Position numbers and translations under genes: made by a program
Shown here: in pieces, positions 31,903-44,487 of the stretch
How the letters are laid out: every line of letters begins with the position of its first letter
Position numbering within the stretch: position 1 is the stretch's first letter
The notes under the pieces: generated by a model
The model's input: the letters and a program-made list of their open reading frames with translations, nothing else
Databases searched by the model: none
Told to the model about the DNA's origin: nothing
Source of the DNA: Terriglobia bacterium
GTDB lineage: Bacteria; Acidobacteriota; Terriglobia; Terriglobales; Acidobacteriaceae
Length of the DNA: 47,872 nucleotides
NCBI GenBank assembly: GCA_020073665.1
Contig: JAIQEU010000022.1
Span: 1-47,872 of the forward strand
Direction: 5' to 3'

Positions 31903-32619
31903 TCAGTGGTCATTTGTGGGATCAGCCGTACCGTCCGACCACTTGGCGACCGGAACCAGAAATACGGTCAGTCGGTCCTGAGGGTCGTCAGCTCTCAGAA
32001 TCGGGGAGCCCGGCAGATCTGCGCCCCAGGTTAGAGCGTCCGTTTGCGGAACGAAAAACATCAGATGGGGATGCCAGTGCCCGTCATGATCGCTCAAATA
32101 CCCTTGCTTTGACATCATGTAACACATCGCGCCGGGTTCCGGCGTCGGCAATTCCTTCTTGTTGAGGCCGGCCTTTATGCTTTCGAACATTTGGGCCTTG
32201 GATCGTCCAGCTAATATCAACTCGGTCTTTTTGATAGTTAGTGGAAGATAGGATCGTGCGGCGGGTGGGTTGAAGCAGATCGGCGCCCGCAGCTTGGGGT
32301 TCCAAAAATCAGGATCGTCAATTCCGGCGGTCCACGAGCGTAGCACCATGCACACGAAACCGTTCTTGCCTTTGACTGCGGTTTCGTAACCATGCCGTCC
32401 GAGAACCAAAACCTCGGCGTCGTGTGAGATGGATTCCGGGGCCGCGCTCCGCGCCAGGGCTATCTCGGCATTCTGATCTGCTATCAGATACTGCTCAACC
32501 GGGGCCATGCTCGGATACTGTATTTTGGCGTCCTGTGCTTGCGCTTGCCATGCCGCACCCAGCAAAACAACCAGTAGGAAGCTTTTTGCTTTGATCGTCC
32601 TGAGAATCTGCCCCTTCAT
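31903..32619 (-). CDS. Secreted protein of unknown function
   Basis: A 238-residue exported protein. GGAGA precedes ATG 32619, and a signal peptide follows (AKSFLLVVLLGAAWQAQAQ). The body has paired cysteines in NGFVCMVLRSW and RAPICFNPPAA, and the notable stretch PEPGAMCYMMSKQGYLSD followed by HDGHWHPHLMFF, rich in His and Met, which could bind metal. Proteins of this type recur in Acidobacteria without known role. It stands alone. Confidence 0.75.
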   Translation of the reverse strand: MKGQILRTIKAKSFLLVVLLGAAWQAQAQDAKIQYPSMAPVEQYLIADQNAEIALARSAAPESISHDAEVLVLGRHGYETAVKGKNGFVCMVLRSWTAGIDDPDFWNPKLRAPICFNPPAARSYLPLTIKKTELILAGRSKAQMFESIKAGLNKKELPTPEPGAMCYMMSKQGYLSDHDGHWHPHLMFFVPQTDALTWGADLPGSPILRADDPQDRLTVFLVPVAKWSDGTADPTNDH

Positions 32620-32670
32620 TGATTTCTCCAAAGGTATGGAACTCTTCTTGGGGAAGATACGTTGATATCT

Positions 32671-32740
32671 AACTGTTGTAAACAGGCGATTACACTCATT
32701 GATCCCGGGTCAATGAGTGTATGGCGATTTATCAACAGTT
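32671..32740 (+). repeat. Family A palindromic repeat, copy 9 (most compact)
   Basis: This 70-bp copy shows the architecture best: outer arms AACTGTTG and CAACAGTT (8 bp, perfect), inner arms TACACTCATTGA (32691-32702) and TCAATGAGTGTA (32710-32721; 12 bp, perfect) around TCCCGGG. Between outer and inner arms lie unpaired TAAACAGGCGAT on the left and TGGCGATTTAT on the right, which share GGCGAT in direct orientation. Confidence 0.92.
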
Positions 32741-32766
32741 GGGTTGTGGTGCCTACCGTTGCTTGA

Positions 32767-32993
32767 TCAGCGAAGGATCTCCGCTGCCTTCCTCGGGTCT
32801 TTGCAGAGCACGTCGAAATATTCTGGGCAGTGCTGATTCGATCTAGCCCGAATCTCCCCACAACACCCATGTCGAGAATGGCATCGGCGTGTCCAAGGAC
32901 GAAGTCCTGGAATCCCTTATCTTTCTCGGCTTGTTGAGACAGTCGAGGCAGAGTTTGCCAGTGGTCAACCAAAATGCGGGCTACCGACTCACT
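32767..32993 (-). pseudogene. Frameshifted gene remnant, family unknown
   Basis: One frame reads VARILVDHWQTLPRLSQQ then AEKDKGFQDFVLGHADAI; a shift near 32845 leads to EIRARSNQHCPEYFDVLC then KDPRKAAEILR and a stop. Both parts look like protein and join naturally, but no start is found and a stop lies upstream. It follows family A copy 9. Confidence 0.4.
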
Positions 32994-33052
32994 ACTTTAG
33001 GTCACTCCACATCTATCAATACGCGTTCGGGGGCGCCCATTGCCGGCATGGC

Positions 33053-34393
33053 CTACCGAATCTTCTGCGCATGACACTCCACGCACGTGTCCTGATACGT
33101 ATGACAGGCAAAACAACTGCGCTTGTTGATCATGGCCAACTTGGCGTGGCCTCCGTTCTTGAACGGGGGCAATGGGACGTGGCTGCGTGGCAATTCGTTG
33201 TGGCACCGACTGCAGAAGTCGGTTACGTGGCAGGTGGAGCAGCTCTCGCGGTCGATAGCGGCGTACTTGCCGTGAATGTCATCTCTCCACCGGGCAGTGT
33301 GCGAGGCGGGGAGCATTACCTGGTGACACGAGTTGCACTGCTCGGACGCGGCCGCCTGCGGAGACACGTTGGTATGGCAAACGAAGCATTTTGCGCCCGG
33401 TGCCGACGCTTCCGCGGAGTGATGCTTGCGGAAGCTTTCGGTATGAAAGTCCGGCTTCACGTAGCGCGTATGACTTATCGGGGCAGGGCCAGATCGATTG
33501 TCGATGTGGCAGACTTGGCAGTTCGACATGCGGAATTCGACCGGCATCGCCTTCGAGGTCTCGTGACATCCCACGCAGTCGACCATCTTCGGCAGCGTCA
33601 TGCTGGTCAGGCCCTTACTGCTGGTGATCCCGTCGTGACAGGTAGTGCACTGCAGTTGGTATTGGTCTCTGATTTTGAAATGCGCGGCGTGGGAGAACTT
33701 CAAATTGACGTACTCCCCTGCAACTATGTGCGGGGCAATCATGCGCCGCTCTTTGGTGTATCCCGGATTCTCGATTTCTTCCGGAGTGTGACAGCCGCGA
33801 CAGTCGCCCGTCGTTGAATTGGGACTAAGCATGGGCTTCATCCCGGGCTTGGAATGGCAGGCAGCACACTGCGGGTGTCCCGGAAAGGTTGCGAACGCGC
33901 CTTGCGCATCAAGCTGGTGACAAAAAGAGCAATCGGCTCGCGAATGGGTTTGTGGGTCCATCCGGCCCAGTGGGTCGACGTGCAGGGCATGCGAGAACTC
34001 GATCAGCATCGCCCGCTTCTTCTTAAAGAGCGGGTACGGAATCAGGTCGCTTCCATTTTTCGGTGGGAACGTCGAATGGCACGGGGCGCACATTGAAGCC
34101 TTCGGCGTGTCGAAGTCCTCCTGGTGGCAGGACGTGCACTCGTCGTGACCAGGGCGCACTAAGACCACCGAGCCACTTTTTTCCGCAACGTGGCAGCCTT
34201 CACAGTCGAGCTTTGCTTTTTTGTGAGCGGCATGCATGAAAAATGTCGCCTGCTCTTGTGGCGCCGACGGTGCTGCGGCCATTGAGGGCTGAGCAGGCGT
34301 CTCCTGGGCCGGCTTATCCTGCGCGAGCAGGCTAGCAGGACCGCACAGGCATGCGAGAACGAAAGTCAGAAGATGCTGGCGAGGTTTCTTCAT
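33053..34393 (-). CDS. Fifteen-heme c-type cytochrome
   Basis: A 446-residue exported multiheme cytochrome. After a signal peptide (LLTFVLACLCGPASLLAQ) and a Pro/Ala linker there are 15 CxxCH motifs: CEGCH, CTSCH, CAPCH, CSFCH, CAACH, CRGCH, CTTCH, CVGCH, CQVCH, CFVCH, CNSCH, CSTCH, CSRCH, CFACH and CVECH. Many upstream histidines (FMHAAH, FSHALH, FSHAAH) are candidate distal ligands. About one heme per 27 residues fits a molecular wire. Its start overlaps the stop of the barrel gene (TAATG), so the two are translationally coupled. This is the pairing expected of a porin-cytochrome complex, with this protein inside or beside the barrel. Direction of electron flow is unknown. Confidence 0.92.
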   Translation of the reverse strand: MKKPRQHLLTFVLACLCGPASLLAQDKPAQETPAQPSMAAAPSAPQEQATFFMHAAHKKAKLDCEGCHVAEKSGSVVLVRPGHDECTSCHQEDFDTPKASMCAPCHSTFPPKNGSDLIPYPLFKKKRAMLIEFSHALHVDPLGRMDPQTHSRADCSFCHQLDAQGAFATFPGHPQCAACHSKPGMKPMLSPNSTTGDCRGCHTPEEIENPGYTKERRMIAPHIVAGEYVNLKFSHAAHFKIRDQYQLQCTTCHDGITSSKGLTSMTLPKMVDCVGCHETSKAMPVEFRMSNCQVCHIDNRSGPAPISHTRYVKPDFHTESFRKHHSAEASAPGAKCFVCHTNVSPQAAASEQCNSCHQVMLPASHTARWRDDIHGKYAAIDRESCSTCHVTDFCSRCHNELPRSHVPLPPFKNGGHAKLAMINKRSCFACHTYQDTCVECHAQKIR

Positions 34394-36009
34394 TAGTATC
34401 GCCAGGCCATTCCCACCCGGAGGGTCTGAGTGTTTTGGATATCGGGTCTGAAAACCGGGAAGTCCGTGTCCAGGTCGTACTCAACAAACATACGGGTGCG
34501 CTGGTCCAATTTCAGGGTGGCGCTTCCGAGCACTCCCTTGTCCTGAGCTTGGTTGATGACGGAAAAACTGTCCTGAAAACCTAGCCAGCGATAGAATCCC
34601 CCCGCCTTGATGCTCATTCTTCCTTCCGCGAAGCTTCGTCCGATTTCGAGGCTCACGTCTCGCACCTTGGTCTCGCCCGCAGTAGAGATGTCATCAAACG
34701 TGACTGGACTGGAAGGGGATGACCGATCAGAGTCTCTCTCGTGATAGTCGAGATCGAGCGTAAGCTTGCGTCCGGGAAACACCTGGGCAGTAGCGCGATA
34801 GTCCCGAAACGACGTATCGAAGGCGCCTTGGTCGGTCGAATCGTTCAGCCTGCGGATCCAGACGCTACCTCCAATCCGAAGCCGGCTGCTGATGACCCGG
34901 CGCGCATCGATCACCACCTGACTGTAAGGAGAAAATACCCCCAGGTTCAAGCGCTGCAAAGGATTGTGCGGATCCAGATCGCGGGCTACTTCGGTGTAGT
35001 CGTAAACGAAATCTTTGTTCGTGATCTTCTGGGCAAAGTCGAGACGCACAGTGGTCTTGCCGTCATCAGGCGTCCAGATTCCGGTGACACTGGCGTCGGT
35101 CGGAGAGCCACCGAACATCCTGAACTCGCCGCTCAACAGCCACTCATTTCCAAACTGTTGGTGATAACTGAAAGCATGACTTCCTTTTACATAGAACAGC
35201 GCATCGTATTCGAAAGTTGCGCGACCTAGCTTGAGGACGAAGTTGCCACCGCCGATGGCCTTTTGCTCCGGGTCCGAGAAATACGTGAATCGCCGTCCAC
35301 CATACAGAGTGTAGGAGAAATTCTGACGGGTCATGTTGAAGGACAGCCCGTCGAAGGCAGCGAGTTCGGCGCCGTAGACGTCCTGCCGCCCCACTCGCAG
35401 TGTGGAACCGGCAAACAGGCCATCGGTTGGCTTGCTGCCGACGTCAACGTATCCCGATAACAGTTGTAATTCCCGGTTCGCATGAAAAGTATTTAAAACG
35501 CCTAGAGCGGGCGAACCCTGGTCAACGGGTGTGAGGTCTTGCTGGTAGCGAAAAGAGAAGTCGGTGTTGATCCGATCCGAGAGCCAGCCCCGCGTCCCCC
35601 AATTCAGAAAGCTATACATCGTATTGGTGCTGGGTTGAAACGCGCCCGGGTAGGGGATGCCGTTGGGATTCGTGATCGAGCCCGGCGGAACGTCGATCAC
35701 GCCCGACAGCGTGGGGTCTCCGGTAAAAGAAGTTTGGGTTCGCCGGTATTCCGTGCAAGTCTCGAAAAAAACGTGATTAAGGAAATCATCGGCGGACCGG
35801 CTCTCGAGGGGAAACTGCGGGACTCTCAAGGCCGGGTCGACCGTGGGCGGCGCAGCCGGATCCTGCAGAACGCTGGCCCAGGCCGCCGCGATGTTTCCAC
35901 CCGGCGCTGGGGCTGCCGAATTCGAGGGTTGCTGGGCGATCGTCGCGACCGGGAACAGCAGGACGCAGGCGCTCATCAGCTGATATGAGATTCTCGAGAA
36001 CCTTCGCAC
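34393..36009 (-). CDS. Outer-membrane beta-barrel, candidate porin of a porin-cytochrome complex
   Basis: A 538-residue exported protein. It starts at GTG 36009 after AGGGGAAG, with a signal peptide (LMSACVLLFPVATIA). From residue about 130 to the end it is a run of alternating amphipathic strands (INTDFSFRYQQDL, LQLLSGYVDVGS, FSYTLYGGRRFTYFS, RIGGSVWIRRLND, KLTLDLDYHERDSD) and it closes with TQTLRVGMAWRY, the aromatic C-terminus of an outer-membrane barrel. It has no close resemblance I can name to MtrB, but its place directly before the 15-heme gene and its size fit an analogous role. A generic porin is the alternative. Confidence 0.8.
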   Translation of the reverse strand: MRRFSRISYQLMSACVLLFPVATIAQQPSNSAAPAPGGNIAAAWASVLQDPAAPPTVDPALRVPQFPLESRSADDFLNHVFFETCTEYRRTQTSFTGDPTLSGVIDVPPGSITNPNGIPYPGAFQPSTNTMYSFLNWGTRGWLSDRINTDFSFRYQQDLTPVDQGSPALGVLNTFHANRELQLLSGYVDVGSKPTDGLFAGSTLRVGRQDVYGAELAAFDGLSFNMTRQNFSYTLYGGRRFTYFSDPEQKAIGGGNFVLKLGRATFEYDALFYVKGSHAFSYHQQFGNEWLLSGEFRMFGGSPTDASVTGIWTPDDGKTTVRLDFAQKITNKDFVYDYTEVARDLDPHNPLQRLNLGVFSPYSQVVIDARRVISSRLRIGGSVWIRRLNDSTDQGAFDTSFRDYRATAQVFPGRKLTLDLDYHERDSDRSSPSSPVTFDDISTAGETKVRDVSLEIGRSFAEGRMSIKAGGFYRWLGFQDSFSVINQAQDKGVLGSATLKLDQRTRMFVEYDLDTDFPVFRPDIQNTQTLRVGMAWRY

Positions 36010-36048
36010 GCTTCCCCTGTGTTCGCCCTGTCTGGAACTTTGAAACGC

Positions 36049-36870
36049 CTAGTGGGCCCGGGCCGACAACGTCTTGATCAGAGTATTTGCCAACGTAATC
36101 CGCCAAGGATAGACATCACTGTGCCACTGCGTGGCCAGCAGATAGAGCTGCAATTCGCTCACGGCGTTGCTGGGTTGTCCTAGCGCCTGATAAATCTGGG
36201 ACAGCGCCCAGTGCACGTGCGCATTGTTGGCTTGGTCGCCGGTAAGGGAGATCGTCAGCGGCGTGACTGGCGATAGGGCCAGCTCAGCTTGATACGCCTG
36301 GATTGCGTTGGTATAAGCCTGCTGCTGCGCCGTCGGATCCGTGGTCTGCTGGGCCTCGACCACATAGGTTTCACCGATCAGGCTGTTGATGCCGAGCTTG
36401 AGCGGATCGATCTTCACGACTTCCTGAAACAACGAAATAGCCTGCGCGGGATTTGTCTGCTGCAACAGGTAGCCCAGCCGCAGTCGCAGCGTGAAGATGC
36501 ATGGCGCGGGGTTAAGCGTGCTGGGCAGGACACCATTCACCAGGCTCGCGGAGGTAACAATCTGGCAGGTGTTGTTTTGCAGGCTGTTCATCGATAACGC
36601 CGTCTGGTAATCGGCGATCGCGTTGGTCGTGTCACCCAAGTCGTCCTGGTGGTGGATGCCACGCTGCAAGTAGTCCCAGGCGTTGGAGAGCTGGGTAATC
36701 TTGAGCAAATTCCAATCAATCCTGCCCTCGAAGTAAAACGGGTTGGGAAGCAGGTAGTAGGGATTGGTAGTTTGAAACTGGCCTGGCGTGTACACGCCGC
36801 CGGTCTGCTGGGCGAAAGCCACACCCAGGAGCAGCCAAGACGAAATCAACAGTCGCAGTTTTGAGCTCAT
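36049..36870 (-). CDS. Exported TPR-like protein of the cytochrome cluster
   Basis: A 273-residue exported protein. GAGG lies before ATG 36870, and a signal peptide follows (LLISSWLLLGVAFAQ). The rest is helical with TPR-like repeats (NAIADYQTALSMN, RLGYLLQQTNPAQAISLFQE, AIQAYQAELALSPV, HWALSQIYQALGQPSNAVSE). Such proteins often scaffold complexes in the periplasm. It lies 8 bp from the pentaheme gene and 39 bp before the barrel gene, so it is probably an assembly or structural partner of the conduit; this is inference. Two cysteines in NTCQIV and APCIFT may form a disulfide. Confidence 0.78.
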   Translation of the reverse strand: MSSKLRLLISSWLLLGVAFAQQTGGVYTPGQFQTTNPYYLLPNPFYFEGRIDWNLLKITQLSNAWDYLQRGIHHQDDLGDTTNAIADYQTALSMNSLQNNTCQIVTSASLVNGVLPSTLNPAPCIFTLRLRLGYLLQQTNPAQAISLFQEVVKIDPLKLGINSLIGETYVVEAQQTTDPTAQQQAYTNAIQAYQAELALSPVTPLTISLTGDQANNAHVHWALSQIYQALGQPSNAVSELQLYLLATQWHSDVYPWRITLANTLIKTLSARAH

Positions 36871-36877
36871 AAAGTCC

Positions 36878-39055
36878 TCACGGGATCACGTTGACAGTGG
36901 TGTCGGCTGAAGTGATGCTTTGGATATTTTTCAACAGGGTATCAATGGCCTGCTCGGTCACTAGCCCGAGATCGTTTCCCGACGGACCGGCAGCCCCGGT
37001 GGTCTGTGCCAGATAGCGCAAGAACAGCGGCGGGAAATGTTCGAAATTCACTTGCGCGTGGACCTGGAGCGGCCCCTTCAAAGTGACGCCCAGTGCCGCC
37101 AGTTCAGCTGCGGTCGGCAATTGAATCTCGTAGGCGAAGGTCCGCGGCTGCAGGGGCTGCAGAGAACGGAAGTTATCCACTGAGTTCGCCAAGGCGGCGT
37201 TGAACGTTTCTTCGAAGTGTGCCGTCTGTGCCTTGATGGGGTTGCCCTGCGCGTCCAGACGCCCGACCACGTCGGTCGTGCACGGAGGATTGGTGGGAGA
37301 TGTCGGGCACGGCAGGTAGATGTGGGTCAACTCGTTCCGGAACAGCACTAGTCCCTCGGGCTTCCCAGCGAACACGCGCTGTTCGGGTCCGTCGTCCGGC
37401 CCAAGTTCAAAGACGATGTTGTTGCCGCCGTTCGTGCCCGTACCGGGGGTGTAGTTGCCGCCCGCATAGTGACCTGGATCCACCACTGCATGCAGGTGCT
37501 CGATATCTTCGTCATCCAGGTTGCCATCGGGCGCCGCTTCTCCAGTGTTCGGGTGCGGTTTGTCCACAACGTAGCCCGATTGATAGATAAGGAACCCGTT
37601 GGCGTCCGTCACTGACAACTGAACGTAAGCAGTGCGCTCCTGAGAGAAACCAGCGGGTAAGCGATGCCCAGTCAGAGAGACCGCTTCCAATCGGACCATG
37701 AAAGACTGACCTAATTGAACGGTCGAGTCGGTGCTGGCCAGGCTGACGCGCGCTGCGGCCTTCATCAGATCGGCGCGCCGTGTGGCCAGTGCCACCGGAA
37801 GACCATGTGTGTCCGTGGCATTGGCGTACGGATCCGGGTAGGTGCTTCCCAGCCGTTCTTTCAGTTCGGCGGCCGGGAGCAGCGGAACGTCAACTCCGGT
37901 AAAGAAGTGCGTGACCACCTGTCGTTTCTGCAACGGGAAATTCTGATCGGTGGAAACGCCCGGGACCGCCGCGTAATCCGTGGGGAAAACACCCGGAGTC
38001 GGGCTGGAGATGGACAGATTCCCGACCTGGTAACTCGAATTACCTGCATAGGGAAACAGGGACATGTGGCAATCCTGGCACCGCACTACTTTGCCGAAAG
38101 GATTGTTGGTGCTGTTGTACGCACCGATCTGCCACTCGGTACTCAGGTTCTCGAGACGGAACACCTTTACGTTCGAGCCTCCCGGGTTGATGTTCTGTTC
38201 CGCCGAGGTAAGGTTGTTGATGGGCAGCCGGACGTCGTGGCAGGTATTGCAGAAAGCGCCAGCGCGCAGGAACGCGATCTTGTTGGTATCGTTGCTGGCA
38301 ACGTGGAAATTGTTCTTGACTCCAACCGGAAACAGGAAGGGGCCGACCTTCTCCTTGGACTGGTTCAAGAACAAACTGGTGTTGCCGAAGCCGTCGTGCT
38401 GGAAGCTGCGATCCAGGTTGGGCCCGTTCTGGTCGTGACAGAAATCACAAGTGATGCCCGCGGCACCGAGTGAGGGCTGGGCACCCGCTGGGGGAGCGCC
38501 TCCTGGCGCAGGTGGAAGCATTTGGTTGCCACTGCTGTCGACCATCGCGTAGTCACGCAGCGGCCTGAAGATACTCGGGTCGAACATCGTTCCCAACCCA
38601 GCGAGCGCGGGAACCTCCCGGGTGTGGGGATTTTCACCCGTCATCTCTATGTTCGCGTTGTGGCAGGTGACGCAGAAGCCGGCTTGGACTTGTCGGGTCT
38701 CGGTCAGCACGGGTGAGCTGAACATGTTGGTGTTCAGATTGCTGCCGTCGGGAAGCACGACATTGCTGTCCGAATAGACTGGCCGCAGCAAGCCGCCATT
38801 GATCAAGTTTCCAGCTGCTTCGAGTCCATTGAACAGTGGACTCACGTTGCGATAACCCGCCTTTACCGCTTGGCGCAGTTCATCGAATTGGCGCTGATGG
38901 CAGGGCAGGCAATTTTCCGGCCGCTGGAATGCTTGCGGCTGGAACTGCACGGGGTTGGTTACGCCAGAGACCGGCGTTGCCCCTCCGCCACAACCCACCT
39001 CCAGAACGCAGCAACCCGCCAGGAACAAAATCGCGATGTAGGATCGAATCGTCAT
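36878..39055 (-). CDS. Pentaheme c-type cytochrome lipoprotein
   Basis: A 725-residue exported protein. The N-terminus has a lipobox (FLAGC, with a second candidate LEVGC), so it is probably lipid-anchored and perhaps at the outer surface. Five CxxCH motifs are present: CLPCH, CVTCH, CDFCH, CNTCH and CQDCH, all in the first half. The second half is beta-rich (TGHRLPAGFSQERTAYVQLS, VTDANGFLIYQSGYV), similar to extracellular cytochromes of metal reducers. It could be the terminal reductase facing outside or an oxidase-side acceptor. Low heme density and the large beta part separate it from the 15-heme wire. Confidence 0.88.
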   Translation of the reverse strand: MTIRSYIAILFLAGCCVLEVGCGGGATPVSGVTNPVQFQPQAFQRPENCLPCHQRQFDELRQAVKAGYRNVSPLFNGLEAAGNLINGGLLRPVYSDSNVVLPDGSNLNTNMFSSPVLTETRQVQAGFCVTCHNANIEMTGENPHTREVPALAGLGTMFDPSIFRPLRDYAMVDSSGNQMLPPAPGGAPPAGAQPSLGAAGITCDFCHDQNGPNLDRSFQHDGFGNTSLFLNQSKEKVGPFLFPVGVKNNFHVASNDTNKIAFLRAGAFCNTCHDVRLPINNLTSAEQNINPGGSNVKVFRLENLSTEWQIGAYNSTNNPFGKVVRCQDCHMSLFPYAGNSSYQVGNLSISSPTPGVFPTDYAAVPGVSTDQNFPLQKRQVVTHFFTGVDVPLLPAAELKERLGSTYPDPYANATDTHGLPVALATRRADLMKAAARVSLASTDSTVQLGQSFMVRLEAVSLTGHRLPAGFSQERTAYVQLSVTDANGFLIYQSGYVVDKPHPNTGEAAPDGNLDDEDIEHLHAVVDPGHYAGGNYTPGTGTNGGNNIVFELGPDDGPEQRVFAGKPEGLVLFRNELTHIYLPCPTSPTNPPCTTDVVGRLDAQGNPIKAQTAHFEETFNAALANSVDNFRSLQPLQPRTFAYEIQLPTAAELAALGVTLKGPLQVHAQVNFEHFPPLFLRYLAQTTGAAGPSGNDLGLVTEQAIDTLLKNIQSITSADTTVNVIP

Positions 39056-39225
39056 GGTGATCCGCCTTGTTCAACCGAGTAATCGGCGAGTTTCGTGCCC
39101 CACGCACGAACCGTGTTTCAGTTCTGGCCCCACAGCTTGTTAAGCACGACTTGAATGGCGACCTAACCCGGGGAGACGCCCGCGAGTCGCCAAGACCCAG
39201 ATACAAAACACTTTCCAGCCTAGCG

Positions 39226-39564
39226 TTACGGCTTCTTCAAAGTACGAACGAACTGGATCACGTTGTCCTTGTCCGCATCAGTCACGTTCTTGGGCGGCTT
39301 CATCTTGCCCGTCCCTTCAGTGATGATTTTTCTCAGCTCAGCATCGGTCTTTTTCTGGACTTCCTCCGACCAGAGCGGCTTCTGTTCGGCCTTCAGTTTC
39401 TTGGCCACATCAGGATTGCCCTCTCCGTAATCGCCGTGGCATATCCTGCACTTCTTCTCGAACACAATTTTGCCCGCCGAAACATCTCCCGCAGGGGGTT
39501 GCGCCCAGCCGACACCTATCCCCAAGCCGATCACAGCTAGCATTCCCGCGACTCGTCTTACCAT
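39226..39564 (-). CDS. Monoheme class I cytochrome c
   Basis: A 112-residue periplasmic electron carrier. GGAGA precedes ATG 39564; a signal peptide follows (VAGMLAVIGLGIGVGWAQ). The heme motif is CRICH near residue 35-40, and the axial Met is in GTGKMKPPKNVTDADK. This is the usual class I fold with a C-terminal helix (NVIQFVRTLKK). It probably shuttles electrons between the inner-membrane tetraheme protein and the outer-membrane components. Confidence 0.92.
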   Translation of the reverse strand: MVRRVAGMLAVIGLGIGVGWAQPPAGDVSAGKIVFEKKCRICHGDYGEGNPDVAKKLKAEQKPLWSEEVQKKTDAELRKIITEGTGKMKPPKNVTDADKDNVIQFVRTLKKP

Positions 39565-39615
39565 TTCTCATGGTCTCCAAATCTCTAAGAAACATTGCCG
39601 GGCATACTTCCGGGT

Positions 39616-40218
39616 TCATTTACTTATCCTCTTGCTGTCAATGATGTCGTCCTTGCGGGCTGGCATCACAATGATCATGGTGAGAAAACTTCGTTTACGA
39701 ATGACTCCCACACGGGTCTGAGTGGCAGCGCGAACGGTAGCGCTTCTGGGCCCCGACCGAATCAATGCATTCTCGCCGAAATAGTCCCCCTCTGAGAACT
39801 TGGCGATAACGCTTTCCGCTCCGTTCTCCTGGTGGATCATCTCCACTTCGCCGCTTTGGATGAAGTAAGCACAGTCTCCTAATTCCCCCTGTCGGAAAAT
39901 GATCTGGCCCGGACCGTAAAGTTCGAAAACAGAAACCCCATGGCGTTTGCGAAATTTGTAAATCGCGACTCCAATGAGGGTCAGTGCGGAAATAGCCACT
40001 AAGACGGGCGCCAAGAGGGAAAACAAGACCAGAGTTCCAGCGGTAGTCTTGACCAGGAACGCGATGCCCGCCGCGTAAGCCAACAGTGCCAGCACCTGCG
40101 CGCCCACCAGCAACCATCGCGCCGTCTGGGGTTCGGCCTTCGACGGTATGGCCACATCCTTGGCCATACCGGCCACGGACGCTTCACACGCAGACGACAT
40201 GATCAGGTTCGTGCTCAT
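39616..40218 (-). CDS. Membrane protein with cyclic-nucleotide-binding domain
   Basis: A 200-residue protein with two membrane segments (LLVGAQVLALLAYAAGIAFL and LVLFSLLAPVLVAISALTLI) and a Crp-type cyclic-nucleotide-binding domain from residue about 95 to 185 (GQIIFRQGELGDCAYFIQSG). The phosphate-binding cassette FGENALIRSGPRSATVRA keeps the conserved Glu and Arg, so nucleotide binding is plausible. There is no DNA-binding domain or channel pore. Its ATG overlaps the stop of the tetraheme gene (ATGA), showing translational coupling. It may sense cAMP or cGMP and adjust the electron-transfer complex; this is inference. Confidence 0.85.
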   Translation of the reverse strand: MSTNLIMSSACEASVAGMAKDVAIPSKAEPQTARWLLVGAQVLALLAYAAGIAFLVKTTAGTLVLFSLLAPVLVAISALTLIGVAIYKFRKRHGVSVFELYGPGQIIFRQGELGDCAYFIQSGEVEMIHQENGAESVIAKFSEGDYFGENALIRSGPRSATVRAATQTRVGVIRKRSFLTMIIVMPARKDDIIDSKRISK

Positions 40219-41021
40219 TGCTTCATCCCCACGTTGTGCGGCGGATTGTCGTCGTCATGGCATTGGCTGCAACTAACCTCATCCGCGAACATGGCATCCC
40301 TGTCATGCGTATGAGAAGCCAGGAATTTTGCCGATGCTCCGTGGCATTTCAGACAGTCATTGTTGGAATAAGGGTGGCGCATTTTCAGGGGAACGCTGAA
40401 GGTGTGGGTGTAGTACTTGAAGACGTCGACGATGCCCTCTGCCTTCGCCTGTAGCGTTCCAAACATCCCGTACGAGGTGTGGCAGGAGTAGCACTGATCG
40501 TCGGCAATATAGCGGTTGGCGTAATGTATGGCCGCAAGGCTCTGGCTCTTGGGGTCCTTCATATCGTCCACATATGGCTTCATTGCAAGGTGGCAGGAAC
40601 TGCACAACGCCACCCGCTGAGACCGCTCAAACACCAGCACTCCGCCCGCACTTGAAACGACGATCGGAAGAATGCCAGCGCCCAAGACCAAGACTCCCCA
40701 CGATACCGGCCCCGCGGTCTTGCCGCGGTAGCGGATCAGACTGTAAAGCAGCGACACCATCCCAATGACGATGAGACCAGCCAGAACGCGCGACCCATAG
40801 TGCTCCACCGGGTCGTACTTCGATACGTCGTGCTGGGCCCGAGTCACCGCCGGAAGCCAAGCGAAACCCCGCAACACCTGCATGCCGAATCTGCCAAGTT
40901 CCAAGTCCTGCCAGGTGCGGCCGAGCCGAGCTAAGGCCCCTCGGGCTTGCGGATTTTCAGAGTGGGTCTGCTTTGGAGACACGCCCGCGGATGGCGCGTT
41001 GCGGGGGGTCCTTAACAACAT
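40215..41021 (-). CDS. Inner-membrane tetraheme cytochrome (NapC/NirT-like role)
   Basis: A 268-residue protein. GAGGAG precedes ATG 41021; the frame upstream to 41075 is not needed. After about 75 soluble residues there are two membrane helices (about 77-98 and 106-130). The periplasmic part has four CxxCH motifs at residues 140 (CSSCH), 177 (CYSCH), 223 (CLKCH) and 251 (CSQCH), with nearby histidines for bis-His ligation. This fits a quinol-oxidising or quinone-reducing entry point like NapC/NirT/CymA, although the two-helix anchor and long cytoplasmic leader are unusual. It is the first gene of the cluster. Confidence 0.87.
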   Translation of the reverse strand: MLLRTPRNAPSAGVSPKQTHSENPQARGALARLGRTWQDLELGRFGMQVLRGFAWLPAVTRAQHDVSKYDPVEHYGSRVLAGLIVIGMVSLLYSLIRYRGKTAGPVSWGVLVLGAGILPIVVSSAGGVLVFERSQRVALCSSCHLAMKPYVDDMKDPKSQSLAAIHYANRYIADDQCYSCHTSYGMFGTLQAKAEGIVDVFKYYTHTFSVPLKMRHPYSNNDCLKCHGASAKFLASHTHDRDAMFADEVSCSQCHDDDNPPHNVGMKQ

Positions 41022-41784
41022 TTGCGCTGCTCCTCTATGGGGGGAGTGACCACACCAAGCTGTGCGGGTAGGCATGCACCTGTCGGGCCACCCGAGGTTG
41101 TGGATATTTACAACGTGGCGAATGCCGCTAGGTTGATTGGAAACTACAGGTTAGGACCATTCCAGGAAACAGTTTGGTTGGCTTGAAGAGAGTGGGACGC
41201 CCCGCACCCACGCACACAAATGCGACCATTGCGCAAATAATTGCTCAACCGGCACACGTATATCGCTGACAAGAAGTGAGATTCGCGAGTCATGGGAAGG
41301 TTACATTGCTGCTTCGATTTTCTGAGAAGAAAGATGAGGATCGTGCAACGATATACCGCCCCTTCATCCAGACATCTGTCGTTCTTTCCCGCAGTTGAGC
41401 GCATTTAGGGTAACCATCGTGGAGTGGAAGCAAATTCTTGAGGCTTTTATGGCGTCGGTCTGGCGCCTTACTTGTGCAGGCTCCCACAGATGAATCCCGC
41501 CGAGGCGGCAGCCTGAAAGGTCGAACCCATCGAGGCGGGGCGAGTATTCTGAAGGCAGTCCCTCGTCCGGTTTGGCAATCCGCCGAAGTGGACGAGAAGG
41601 CAAACGCTCGCATCTCGAACTATTCCTCTATATTTAAAGATGACTCGGGCGTAGGCAAGGGCGCCGGGATTCGGGTTGGCCAGCGTGCACGGTCCCTCAC
41701 ACTCGTTAAACCGCTACCACGCACAGTCCAATAAGCGATTGACTCTTATGGTTTTACACGGCACTAATACGGGACGGGTTGAGA
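41022..41784. other. Intergenic region upstream of the cytochrome cluster
   Basis: No protein-like frame is seen in these 763 bases. Near the cluster's start there is an inverted repeat GTTGT-N8-ACAAC (41097-41114), which could be an operator for the cytochrome operon, but no clear -35/-10 pair accompanies it. The right boundary is the tRNA-Arg fragment. Confidence 0.4.
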
Positions 41785-41834
41785 TGGTAGGCGCGGCAGG
41801 AATCGAACCTGCAACCCCCGGATTAGAAATCCGG
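41785..41834 (-). tRNA. tRNA-Arg(TCT), 3' half only
   Basis: Read on the minus strand, it begins with anticodon stem CCGGA, loop TTTCTAA (anticodon TCT), stem TCCGG, a variable loop, then T-arm GCAGG-TTCGATT-CCTGC, acceptor strand CGCGCCT, A and encoded CCA. No D-arm and no matching AGGCGCG acceptor strand lie to its right, so it is not a functional gene. A break at the anticodon stem is typical of the duplicated 3' end left by tyrosine-integrase insertion in a tRNA gene. Confidence 0.8.
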
Positions 41835-42077
41835 CCCAATTTTTTGCAAGTCCCACAACTCGTTGCGCTTGCAGCCGGATGCGATCTTGAGGATGTGGCA
41901 TTCGGTGCCGTCCGATGCCCTCGTGTTTCCTCCGGTTGGGCAGAGTTTGGGCAGAGAACCTGCTGCCTGTTTTCCGCCTCTTTTCAGGCTGGGCTCAAGT
42001 GCAAATCGAGGCTGGGCTCACGCCAGCATCTTCTCCAACTTCGCTATCAGTGGGCGCAAAGACTAAAATTCAAATTT

Positions 42078-42776
42078 GTGTGTGGCCGATACCGACTCTC
42101 GCGCCGTAAGGAATTTCTGGCAGAACACTTCGGTGCTGACTTTGCCGACCTGGACTGGGAGCCGCGCTACAACATAGCGCCAACGCAGCCGGTGCCGGTT
42201 GTACGGCGCGACGACCGTGGCATGACCTTCAATGTGTCCCTGATGCGCTGGGGGCTCATACCATCCTGGGCAGGCGACACCAGTGCTCCGATGATCAACG
42301 CTCGGTGCGAGACTGCGGCCAGCAAGCCTTCCTTCCGTGAGCCGCTCCAGCGGCGGCGCTGCCTGATTCCTGCGGATGGGTTCTATGAGTGGCAACGCGC
42401 TGCAAAGGTGAAGCAGCCGTTCTGCTTTGAGGTTGGGGAAGGCGCAATCTTTGCATTCGCTGGTCTGTGGGATCGATGGCGGGACCCTAATGGCCAGGTG
42501 ATCGAATCATGCACAATCCTCACTACGACGCCGAACGAGTTGCTGGCCGACGTGCATGACAGGATGCCGGTCATCCTCGCTGCCGACAGCTATGATCGCT
42601 GGCTCGATCCCACCATGCAGGATGCAGCGAGCGCTGTGGGCCTACTCAAGCCGTTCGACTCGAACCTGATGAGGCGCTACCCGGTCAGCACGCGGGTCAA
42701 TCTAACGGCGAATGATGGGCCCGAGTGCTCTGCACGGATCGACTTACCAGCAGTAAATGCAACTCTCTTCGACTGA
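42078..42776 (+). CDS. SRAP-domain protein (YedK/HMCES family)
   Basis: A 232-residue protein that forms a covalent thiazolidine link to abasic sites in single-stranded DNA and so protects them. Mature activity needs a cysteine right after the start: GTG 42078 gives V/M1-Cys2-Gly-Arg-Tyr, so this is the start. The longer frame to 41676 only translates the tRNA fragment. Other active residues are Asn32 (RYNIAPTQ), Glu103 (DGFYEW) and His159 (DVHDRMPVIL). RWGLIPSW and INARCET are intact. It is the first gene to the right of the tRNA scar, and SRAP genes are often carried on mobile elements. No Shine-Dalgarno is seen. Confidence 0.92.
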   Translation: MCGRYRLSRRKEFLAEHFGADFADLDWEPRYNIAPTQPVPVVRRDDRGMTFNVSLMRWGLIPSWAGDTSAPMINARCETAASKPSFREPLQRRRCLIPADGFYEWQRAAKVKQPFCFEVGEGAIFAFAGLWDRWRDPNGQVIESCTILTTTPNELLADVHDRMPVILAADSYDRWLDPTMQDAASAVGLLKPFDSNLMRRYPVSTRVNLTANDGPECSARIDLPAVNATLFD

Positions 42777-43083: not shown

Positions 43084-44487
43084 ATGCTGTTCGACACGCC
43101 AATCTACGTCGTCTTTCTAGCCCTGACGGTCCTTTGCTATTGGTGTCTCCCTTTCCGCAGTCAGAACAAGTTCCTTCTCCTTGCCAGCTACTTTTTCTAT
43201 GGCTGGTGGGATTGGCGCTTTCTTTGTTTGATGATCGCGTCCACTGTTATCGACTATTTCATCGCCATCAAGATCGAAGACACGAAAGAGCCGAAGATTC
43301 GCCGGTCACTTCTAGTGCTGTCGCTGTTCATAAATTTCTCCATTCTTGGATTGTTTAAGTACTTCAACTTTTTTGCTGATTCCCTGGCAGCCGCTTTAAG
43401 CACTGTCGGGTTAGCCGTTTCCTTGCCTGTTCTTCGTATCATCCTGCCGCCCGGCATTTCGTTCTATACCTTTCAGGAAGTTGCTTATATAGTGGACGTC
43501 TATTCAGGCAAGGTGAGGGCTTCCCGGTCGTTCGTGGACTACGGTCTCTTCATAAGTCTGTTCCCGCACTTAATTGCGGGCCCAATCCAACGCCCCTCTC
43601 ATCTGTTACCGCAGGTTCAAAGGGCGCGGCGCTGGAGTTCTCAGAAGGCGTTCGATGGCTTGTTGCTAATCTTGGAGGGAGTGTTTCGCAAGTGCGTGAT
43701 AGCTGACAACTGCGCCCTTATCGCTAACGCTGCCTTTACTGGAGCGTTCGGGAGGCCGAGCATTCCCGTGGTTCTTCTGGGGATGTATGCGTTCGCTTGG
43801 CAGATTTATGGTGACTTCAGCGGCTATAGCAGCATCGCCCGTGGTAGTGCACAACTCCTGGGTTTTCATTTCATGGTGAATTTTCGACAGCCTTACCTCG
43901 CCGAAAGTATCCAGGACTTTTGGCGACGCTGGCACATCAGCCTGAGCACATGGCTCCGCGATTATCTCTACATTCCCCTTGGTGGTAATCGCAAAGGTGA
44001 AGGTGCTACCTATCGCAACCTGTTGCTGACGATGCTCCTGGGTGGTTTGTGGCACGGAGCCAACTGGACTTTTGTTATTTGGGGCGGGATTCACGGTGGA
44101 AGCCTAGCCGCCGAAAGGAAGGTTACCGAAGGCAAGATTCCCAAACCCGGAGCCTTTCGCAAGTGGATCAGTCGGGTCTTTATCTTCCACCTGGTGGGCG
44201 TCAGTTGGATATTTTTCCGTGCGCAGTCTCTAAGAGCAGCGTGGCAAATGCTACGAGGTTTCACTGCTTGGAGTTGGAGACCGGAGTTCCCCACTGCGTT
44301 TCTGTTTCTCGCCGTTTTTTCTATCCCTTTATTGCTGATCGACCTTCATCTGGAGTCTTCAGGAGGGGAATACTGCTTCGAGTCCACGCCGATACGGCCT
44401 CGCGTAGCCTTTGGTCTCGCCTGCGCACTAGCAATTGCTTTTTTAGGAGCGAATCAAGCGAATGCATTCATCTACTTCCAGTTCTAG
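43084..44487 (+). CDS. MBOAT-family membrane O-acyltransferase (AlgI-like)
   Basis: A 467-residue polytopic inner-membrane protein that moves acyl groups, usually acetyl, across the membrane for polysaccharide modification. The signature DFWRRWHISLSTWLRDYLYI is followed by PLGGNRKG and the catalytic His324 in GGLWHGANWTF. About ten membrane helices are predicted from hydrophobic stretches. ATG 43084 begins the normal N-terminus. The last 26 bp overlap the start of an SGNH-hydrolase-like gene, an AlgI/AlgX-like or PatA/PatB-like pairing. Confidence 0.95.
   Translation: MLFDTPIYVVFLALTVLCYWCLPFRSQNKFLLLASYFFYGWWDWRFLCLMIASTVIDYFIAIKIEDTKEPKIRRSLLVLSLFINFSILGLFKYFNFFADSLAAALSTVGLAVSLPVLRIILPPGISFYTFQEVAYIVDVYSGKVRASRSFVDYGLFISLFPHLIAGPIQRPSHLLPQVQRARRWSSQKAFDGLLLILEGVFRKCVIADNCALIANAAFTGAFGRPSIPVVLLGMYAFAWQIYGDFSGYSSIARGSAQLLGFHFMVNFRQPYLAESIQDFWRRWHISLSTWLRDYLYIPLGGNRKGEGATYRNLLLTMLLGGLWHGANWTFVIWGGIHGGSLAAERKVTEGKIPKPGAFRKWISRVFIFHLVGVSWIFFRAQSLRAAWQMLRGFTAWSWRPEFPTAFLFLAVFSIPLLLIDLHLESSGGEYCFESTPIRPRVAFGLACALAIAFLGANQANAFIYFQF

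Follow-up and report, generated by a model that had tools for sequence, protein, structure and literature searches.

The described systems closest to the locus reported here are the porin-cytochrome clusters MtrCAB, MtoAB and PioAB, the Geobacter ExtHIJKL cluster and, at the inner membrane, the NapC/NirT quinol dehydrogenases. In the passages drawn on here, ExtKL is called a periplasmic protein of a Geobacter conduit cluster (PMC6148476), and a paper on cable bacteria places it in a pentaheme family with structural likeness to Thermochromatium tepidum cytochrome c552 (PMC11976967). ImcH is described with three membrane segments and a CX3CH motif (PMC6295460), and other porin-cytochrome clusters are already on record for Acidobacteriota (PMC7399161, PMC8528874, PMC8805035, PMC13264449; excerpts). 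We analysed contig JAIQEU010000022.1 of a Terriglobia bacterium, a stretch of 47,872 nucleotides referred to as the window. Seven genes on its minus strand, which a sequence-only reading had taken for one trans-envelope electron conduit, were all recovered as open reading frames with the same coordinates (Table 1). Their relatives show that the seven genes are two modules: module A, comprising a pentaheme cytochrome, a tetratricopeptide repeat (TPR) protein, an outer-membrane barrel and a 15-heme cytochrome, and module B, comprising a tetraheme cytochrome, a cyclic-nucleotide (cNMP)-binding membrane protein and a monoheme cytochrome. We propose, with a probability of roughly 0.6, that module A is a non-Mtr trans-outer-membrane electron conduit and module B an exchangeable inner-membrane entry to it.

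At E≤1e-20, 13 of the 399 class genomes searched, with that of the window among them, hold a close homologue of the 15-heme gene. In all 12 foreign loci of this set the barrel gene stands immediately before the 15-heme gene, so the conservation of the barrel beside the cytochromes, on which the sequence-only reading had staked its case in advance, was borne out. According to a different view, the barrel would be a generic porin lying beside cytochrome genes by chance. The structure searches, which return many unrelated barrels, fit this view; the constant adjacency, the agreement of the gene trees and the single barrel match in the window's genome speak against it and make it very improbable, and we rejected it on the conservation across the 12 foreign loci. 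Returning to the conduit, the order pentaheme-TPR-barrel-15-heme is the same in 14 of 14 foreign assemblies with all four genes at least partly readable. These comprise 10 class-genome loci and four further loci (L035, L036, L039 and L041); loci with one cut gene were kept (the pentaheme gene in L026, the 15-heme gene in L035 and L036). L030, L031 and L042, which are cut deeper, were left out of this count and agree with the order in their readable parts; L042 and L030 may be the two ends of one genome's cluster.

The four genes also agree with one another. Over 15 loci their identity-based distances, uncorrected for species history, correlate pairwise at 0.94–0.98. Maximum-likelihood trees of the same number of rows have in common, for all four genes, the pairing of the window with genome G010, the grouping of G119 with G177, G220 and L036, and a clade of a single genus (g50) to which six of the carriers belong; the order within the main groups differs between the four gene trees. 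In five g50 genomes an 8-heme protein (PF02335, with weak DmsE-type similarity) is encoded downstream of module A (L022 12068-13906 and equivalents in L026-L029). L041 holds a complete module A in a metagenome-assembled genome titled Chloroflexi, pointing to transfer or mis-binning; its placement with g50 is well supported in two trees, fairly in one and weakly in the 15-heme tree.

In 396 genomes sampled from the phylum, the 15-heme search gave five matches at E≤1e-15; apart from those in the window and in G010 they are partial (32–36%). Weaker matches (28–36%) were not counted; the five inspected adjoin other multiheme genes or sit in 23-heme proteins. Searched with the pentaheme alignment, the genome contigs yielded 154 relatives; the 80 best were retained. 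The block is carried by 13 of these 80 loci (L042 is cut inside the TPR gene), eight of them duplicating contigs already in the class-genome set and counted once. At the other 67 loci (L046 and L049-L114) relatives of the barrel and of the 15-heme protein are both missing, and the record titles include Planctomycetota, Myxococcota, Binatia and others; the titles of the block-carrying records, L041 excepted, name various Acidobacteriota. L046 (9989-14676) shows a pentaheme-TPR pair, perhaps an older pair, without barrel and 15-heme genes and followed by a peptidoglycan-binding/VanY protein.

Module B behaves differently. The trio tetraheme-cNMP-monoheme adjoins module A in four of the 13 genomes with the 15-heme gene, and each placement is different: upstream of module A on the same strand in the window, at the 15-heme end and facing the 15-heme gene in G051, divergent from the pentaheme gene in G119, and downstream of the 15-heme gene in G323. 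A monoheme gene alone lies near module A in G010, G177 and G220. For G105 and G111, with contigs ending at or inside module A, and for G323, with a contig starting inside the barrel gene, the upstream side falls outside the contig. Conversely, the tetraheme-cNMP pair occurs with no adjoining module A in G094, G081 and G100 (the latter on a contig of 4.1 kb), none of which is among the 13 genomes matching the 15-heme gene. Just before the trio of G094 (L135 8406-12214) lies a stretch of 47 residues resembling the N-terminus of the 15-heme protein (36%, E 2.5e-4), a stump that suggests loss of module A. The earlier notion of one conserved seven-gene unit is thus not supported, as its layout and head-to-tail order were seen in the window only (one of 13 genomes) and the order that is conserved is that of module A. 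What remains of the proposed conduit in an acidobacterium is a heme-rich, barrel-linked gene set conserved in Acidobacteriota.

Within the window, the 25 heme motifs reported earlier were confirmed by counting CXXCH in the translations (4 in the tetraheme, 1 in the monoheme, 5 in the pentaheme and 15 in the 15-heme protein), as were the stop/start overlaps ATGA at 40218-40215 and TAATG at 34395-34391. For the tetraheme gene the ATG at 40883 (222 amino acids) is a likelier start than that at 41021, because the homologues begin later. Monoheme and pentaheme genes are separated by 170 bases (39056-39225), so the head-to-tail layout is no proof of one operon. A sigma-70-type scan of 32600-41600 gave one promoter-like and five terminator-like sites, compared with 3.2 and 8.1 in shuffled sequences. 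Both counts are below those of the shuffles, and the absence of sites of either kind from the 170-base gap carries no information. Signal peptides were assessed by visual inspection of the N-terminal sequences; a hydropathy scan of the four module A proteins flagged the pentaheme and the barrel only. Upstream of the cluster, on the plus strand, lie genes for an SOS-response-associated peptidase (SRAP; 41676-42776) and an MBOAT acyltransferase (43084-44487).

Table 1. Genes of the two modules in the window.
Feature	Coordinates	Strand	Evidence
Tetraheme cytochrome, module B: inner-membrane, NapC/NirT-like	40215..41021	-	PF03264, two hydrophobic segments, alignment of 7
cNMP protein, module B: membrane protein with C-terminal cyclic-nucleotide-binding domain	39616..40218	-	PF00027, hydrophobic stretch, alignment of 7
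Small monoheme cytochrome c, module B, probably exported	39226..39564	-	PF13442 E 4.6e-10; alignment of 7
Pentaheme cytochrome, module A, remote kin of ExtKL-type MccSep and cytochrome c552	36878..39055	-	profile matches
TPR protein, module A, probably exported	36049..36870	-	TPR_8 E 9.3e-8; alignment of 11
Outer-membrane beta-barrel, module A, 22 predicted strands	34393..36009	-	AF2, VIA-align
15-heme cytochrome, module A, probably exported	33053..34393	-	15 CXXCH; PF14522 E 4.3e-16

The barrel protein has no family match in Pfam or NCBIfam at E≤1. An AF2 model from 13 sequences folds it into 22 strands (pLDDT 68, pTM 0.62), and VIA-align matches this model to outer-membrane barrels of several families (Z up to 18.6 over 351 residues, root-mean-square deviation 4.4), in agreement with the barrel predicted earlier from the letters alone. 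The hits of Foldseek and VIA-align spread over many unrelated barrels without singling out one family; among the rows listed MtrB does not appear, which excludes nothing. The barrel profile gave nothing meaningful against the sequences of solved structures, and a single-sequence barrel scan of genome contigs gave no matches.

All 12 sequences compared for the 15-heme cytochrome keep the 15 histidines of the motifs and exactly 15 others; alignment A9, with 13 rows, departs from this just by gaps in two rows that are cut. Fifteen spare histidines are the number needed for 15 bis-His hemes, and the protein thus looks as a fully bis-His wire would. It scores 14.4 bits against the MtrA/DmsE decaheme model TIGR03508, below the cut-off of 192.2.

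The pentaheme profile matches cytochrome c552 of T. tepidum (5ze8, E 1.8e-8) and MccSep (E 7.5e-7), while unrelated reaction-centre cytochromes enter the list from E 3e-4 as background. Five heme motifs and a GH-P-G stretch follow one another in the same order as in 5ze8, the first stretch, with three motifs, being the only one significant alone. The protein would accordingly count as a remote relative of the ExtKL/cytochrome c552 family; with 11.6 bits against the ExtKL equivalog (cut-off 250) it is not a member of the latter. All 24 rows of alignment A10, which joins the window with 23 of the 80 kept loci, have the same GFSQER loop. The Phe of the loop falls opposite the selenocysteine at MccSep position 325, in a weak alignment worth about 2 bits on its own. 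The widely conserved spare histidines are those at 251 (23/24), 383 (24/24), 464 (24/24) and 501 (22/24). With four for five hemes, one heme may be Met-ligated or open. The window protein does carry a lipobox (LAGC), as the sequence-only reading had it. The strict pattern is present in 0 of 12 close relatives carrying module A or part of it (in G010, locus L045, a Cys stands at a second possible place in a non-canonical setting) and in 5 of 11 remoter homologues. Because close relatives have no lipobox and ExtKL, the closest kin with a characterised role, is called periplasmic, a role as a surface lipoprotein is doubtful. The TPR protein has a mean column identity of 61% over 11 homologues.

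These features of the pentaheme are also what a channel with a periplasmic reductase would have. A small soluble acceptor, such as an oxyanion, would then enter through the barrel and be reduced in the periplasm by the pentaheme, to which the 15-heme wire would deliver the electrons; none would cross the outer membrane. Besides the spare-histidine count, the active-site-like invariant loop and the lipobox-free relatives, the literature on Geobacter is in keeping with this, as the sections of PMC5877670 and PMC6148476 considered here call ExtKL periplasmic, link the porin of its cluster, ExtI, to selenite and tellurite reduction and propose it as a selenite channel. On the other hand, an all-His wire of 15 hemes exceeds the needs of a periplasmic relay, barrel and 15-heme genes are adjacent in every locus with both readable, and the alignment around the selenocysteine carries little information by itself. 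We regard such a channel as rather unlikely, and the conduit remains our preferred reading of module A.

In module B, the tetraheme protein reaches 31.4 bits with PF03264 (cut-off 24.1), one of several generic multiheme models that it matches, and 21.5 bits with the NCBIfam model napC_nirT, far from the cut-off of 310.6. It has two hydrophobic segments and four CX2CH motifs; its profile (four sequences) found none of the solved structures at E≤0.01. Of 200 class genomes, 39 have a relative, that of the window being one of them. Among 20 tetraheme loci with about 1.5 kb of flank, the cNMP gene follows in six, including all five at 50% identity or more. PF00027 stretches number 21 in the 5.4 Mb of the window's genome, and at this density chance would not be expected to place one beside the tetraheme in each of the close cases. 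The cNMP protein matches PF00027 (E 3.3e-24, 85 bits; domain at about 39616-39930, minus strand), with no other domain recognised, and has a hydrophobic stretch at about residues 38-86. In the phosphate-binding cassette of cyclic-nucleotide-binding domains, a Glu and an Arg play particular roles. The corresponding motif FGE-x-AL...PR-x-ATVR, with E149 and R158, is invariant in 7 of 7 sequences; the protein matches the domains of cGMP- and cAMP-dependent kinases, and FGE...PR aligns with those of the cGMP-dependent kinases.

Domains of the same type are found at other electron entries. Divergent from module A in G220 (L037) is an NADH-linked set consisting of NuoEF-like proteins, a NuoG/HoxU-like iron-sulphur protein, a membrane protein and a 10-heme cytochrome; by gene layout the same set is present in G177 (L038). 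The iron-sulphur protein contains three cNMP stretches that make up two domains, one with an insertion. The first keeps FGE...PR-x-ATVR, and the second lacks the Arg in L037 and L038. The window's own genome carries such a set on another contig (C10, L145 4973-11106; 34–62% identity), unlinked from module A. There it adjoins a 9-heme protein of 1252 and a 4-heme protein of 461 amino acids. Behind module B of G094 lies an NDH-2-type protein with a cNMP domain in which Glu and Arg are kept. Of the 66 remote loci L049-L114, 32 show a gene with a cNMP domain on the same strand where the pentaheme gene ends, and in 21 of the 32 a gene with at least four hemes comes after it. Five of the encoded proteins were scanned (L066, L070, L086, L101 and L106), all with PF00027; 4Fe-4S domains accompany it in every one but L106, and in the four iron-sulphur proteins aligned Asp replaces the conserved Glu of the second domain. 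In L066 a 4-heme, 4Fe-4S and FAD-type protein is encoded next. In the Myxococcota-type records L064-L113 (e.g. L066 8930-16416), large remote pentaheme relatives of about 1000 amino acids are followed by a 4Fe-4S/two-cNMP protein and a 4-heme FeS/FAD protein, which together form a recurring redox set. In another acidobacterial genome (L034 386-3502), 8-heme and 9-heme genes precede a protein with cNMP-binding domains.

The recurrence at chemically different entries, i.e. the NapC-like tetraheme with its cNMP subunit (seven loci), the NADH-linked set, the NDH-2-type protein and, in Myxococcota-type records, the 4Fe-4S/two-cNMP protein beside remote pentaheme relatives, is consistent with a cyclic-nucleotide-gated respiratory valve. 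A second messenger would bind the inner-membrane electron-entry machines directly and, without transcription, open or close the flow to the conduit. The strict nucleotide-pocket pattern was found in 0 of the 32 Myxococcota-type proteins (its strictness makes it pass over L037, L038 and the NDH-2-type protein as well), so the domain may serve another purpose there, which speaks against the valve. We put the valve forward tentatively and think it unlikely.

Taken together, a working model can be drawn. The 22-stranded barrel would sheathe or dock the fully bis-His 15-heme wire, the TPR protein would scaffold the outer-membrane complex, and the pentaheme would be a specific redox partner of the conduit and possibly a terminal active site. 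On the inner side the NapC-like tetraheme would exchange electrons with the quinone pool and pass them on via the monoheme, with the membrane cNMP-binding subunit tuning module B. We infer export of the proteins, formation of a complex, passage of the wire through the barrel and the quinone link, as well as the direction, for which outward flow is favoured, and the substrate. The window's genome has four COX1-family genes over cut-off, one of which (on C33) we take to be possibly a nitric-oxide reductase. Such a gene content fits an oxygen-respiring organism, for which the conduit may be an additional outlet for electrons, the direction being unproven by this. The same COX1-family genes would suit a conduit running inward, from an extracellular donor to the oxidases, and MtoAB and PioAB demonstrate that inward flow is possible in such conduits (excerpts used of PMC8805035). 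No RuBisCO large-subunit match was found in the window's genome, which mildly favours outward flow, and nothing in the cluster marks a direction. Electron uptake is an unlikely variant in our view.

Several observations weigh against a conduit with an exchangeable entry. The 15-heme gene is rare in the class, and in the phylum sample the close matches are the window and G010 alone. Modules A and B are often unlinked. The AF2 model of the 15-heme protein (pLDDT 37) was not used, and insertion into the barrel has no support from structure; the barrel model itself is moderate, with pLDDT below 50 in the first 52 mature residues, and its Foldseek TM-scores (query) are just 0.23–0.50 among the rows listed. 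There is no obvious outer-surface cytochrome, the lipobox of the pentaheme being absent from close relatives, and the Myxococcota-type proteins have apparently altered nucleotide pockets. Finally, 6 of 11 foreign rows in alignment A2 come from g50, which makes the invariance counts less independent. The members of this genus are sponge symbionts, for which metal respiration is no obvious lifestyle.

If the proposal is true, the known routes for electrons through an outer membrane would gain, in Acidobacteriota, one made of a 15-heme wire and a barrel with no sequence relatives recognised, and an outer-membrane core would be reused with different inner-membrane feeds. The recurrent cNMP-type domains make it possible to test whether respiration in bacteria is gated by a ligand that binds directly to the proteins of electron entry. 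In searches of the running text of an open-licence library we found no report of this gene set, or of cNMP domains at such entries.

How does the locus compare with the known systems? A barrel gene is conserved beside multiheme cytochrome genes, as in porin-cytochrome systems. Judged by its genes, module A is predicted to work like such a conduit while being a member of neither MtrCAB nor ExtHIJKL. Like Geobacter ExtHIJKL(MNOPQS), it groups a gene for an outer-membrane barrel with one for a pentaheme remotely akin to ExtKL and with other multiheme genes; no outer-membrane cytochrome belongs to extHIJKL in the portions of PMC6148476 used for this comparison. In contrast to ExtHIJKL, neither a rhodanese-type lipoprotein nor a selenocysteine pentaheme was found among the seven genes or the flanking genes scanned (Phe stands at the aligned position); 15-heme and TPR proteins are present instead, and the likeness of the pentaheme is at profile level only. 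MtrCAB, MtoAB and PioAB likewise combine a barrel with an adjacent high-density multiheme cytochrome, some clusters having a NapC-type tetraheme entry (PMC8805035, in part). The barrel here gives no match to the MtrB_PioB sequence family (PF11854 had no match in the window's genome, and none of 14 control genomes gave one over cut-off either), its partner has 15 hemes, not 10, and no MtrC-like cytochrome was recognised here. The MtrCAB of Bryobacterales, as presented in the same excerpts, is a different system. Cytochrome c552 (5ze8) and MccSep (9wt8) share the ordered pentaheme motifs and a GH-x-x-P-x-G type stretch, whereas the pentaheme here has the invariant GFSQER, is nearly 300 residues longer and is tied to TPR and barrel genes. 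The tetraheme resembles the NapC/NirT quinol dehydrogenases CymA and ImcH as a membrane-anchored multiheme protein with a Cytochrom_NNT domain; unlike these, it combines two segments and four CX2CH motifs with a cNMP-binding membrane protein encoded directly after it.

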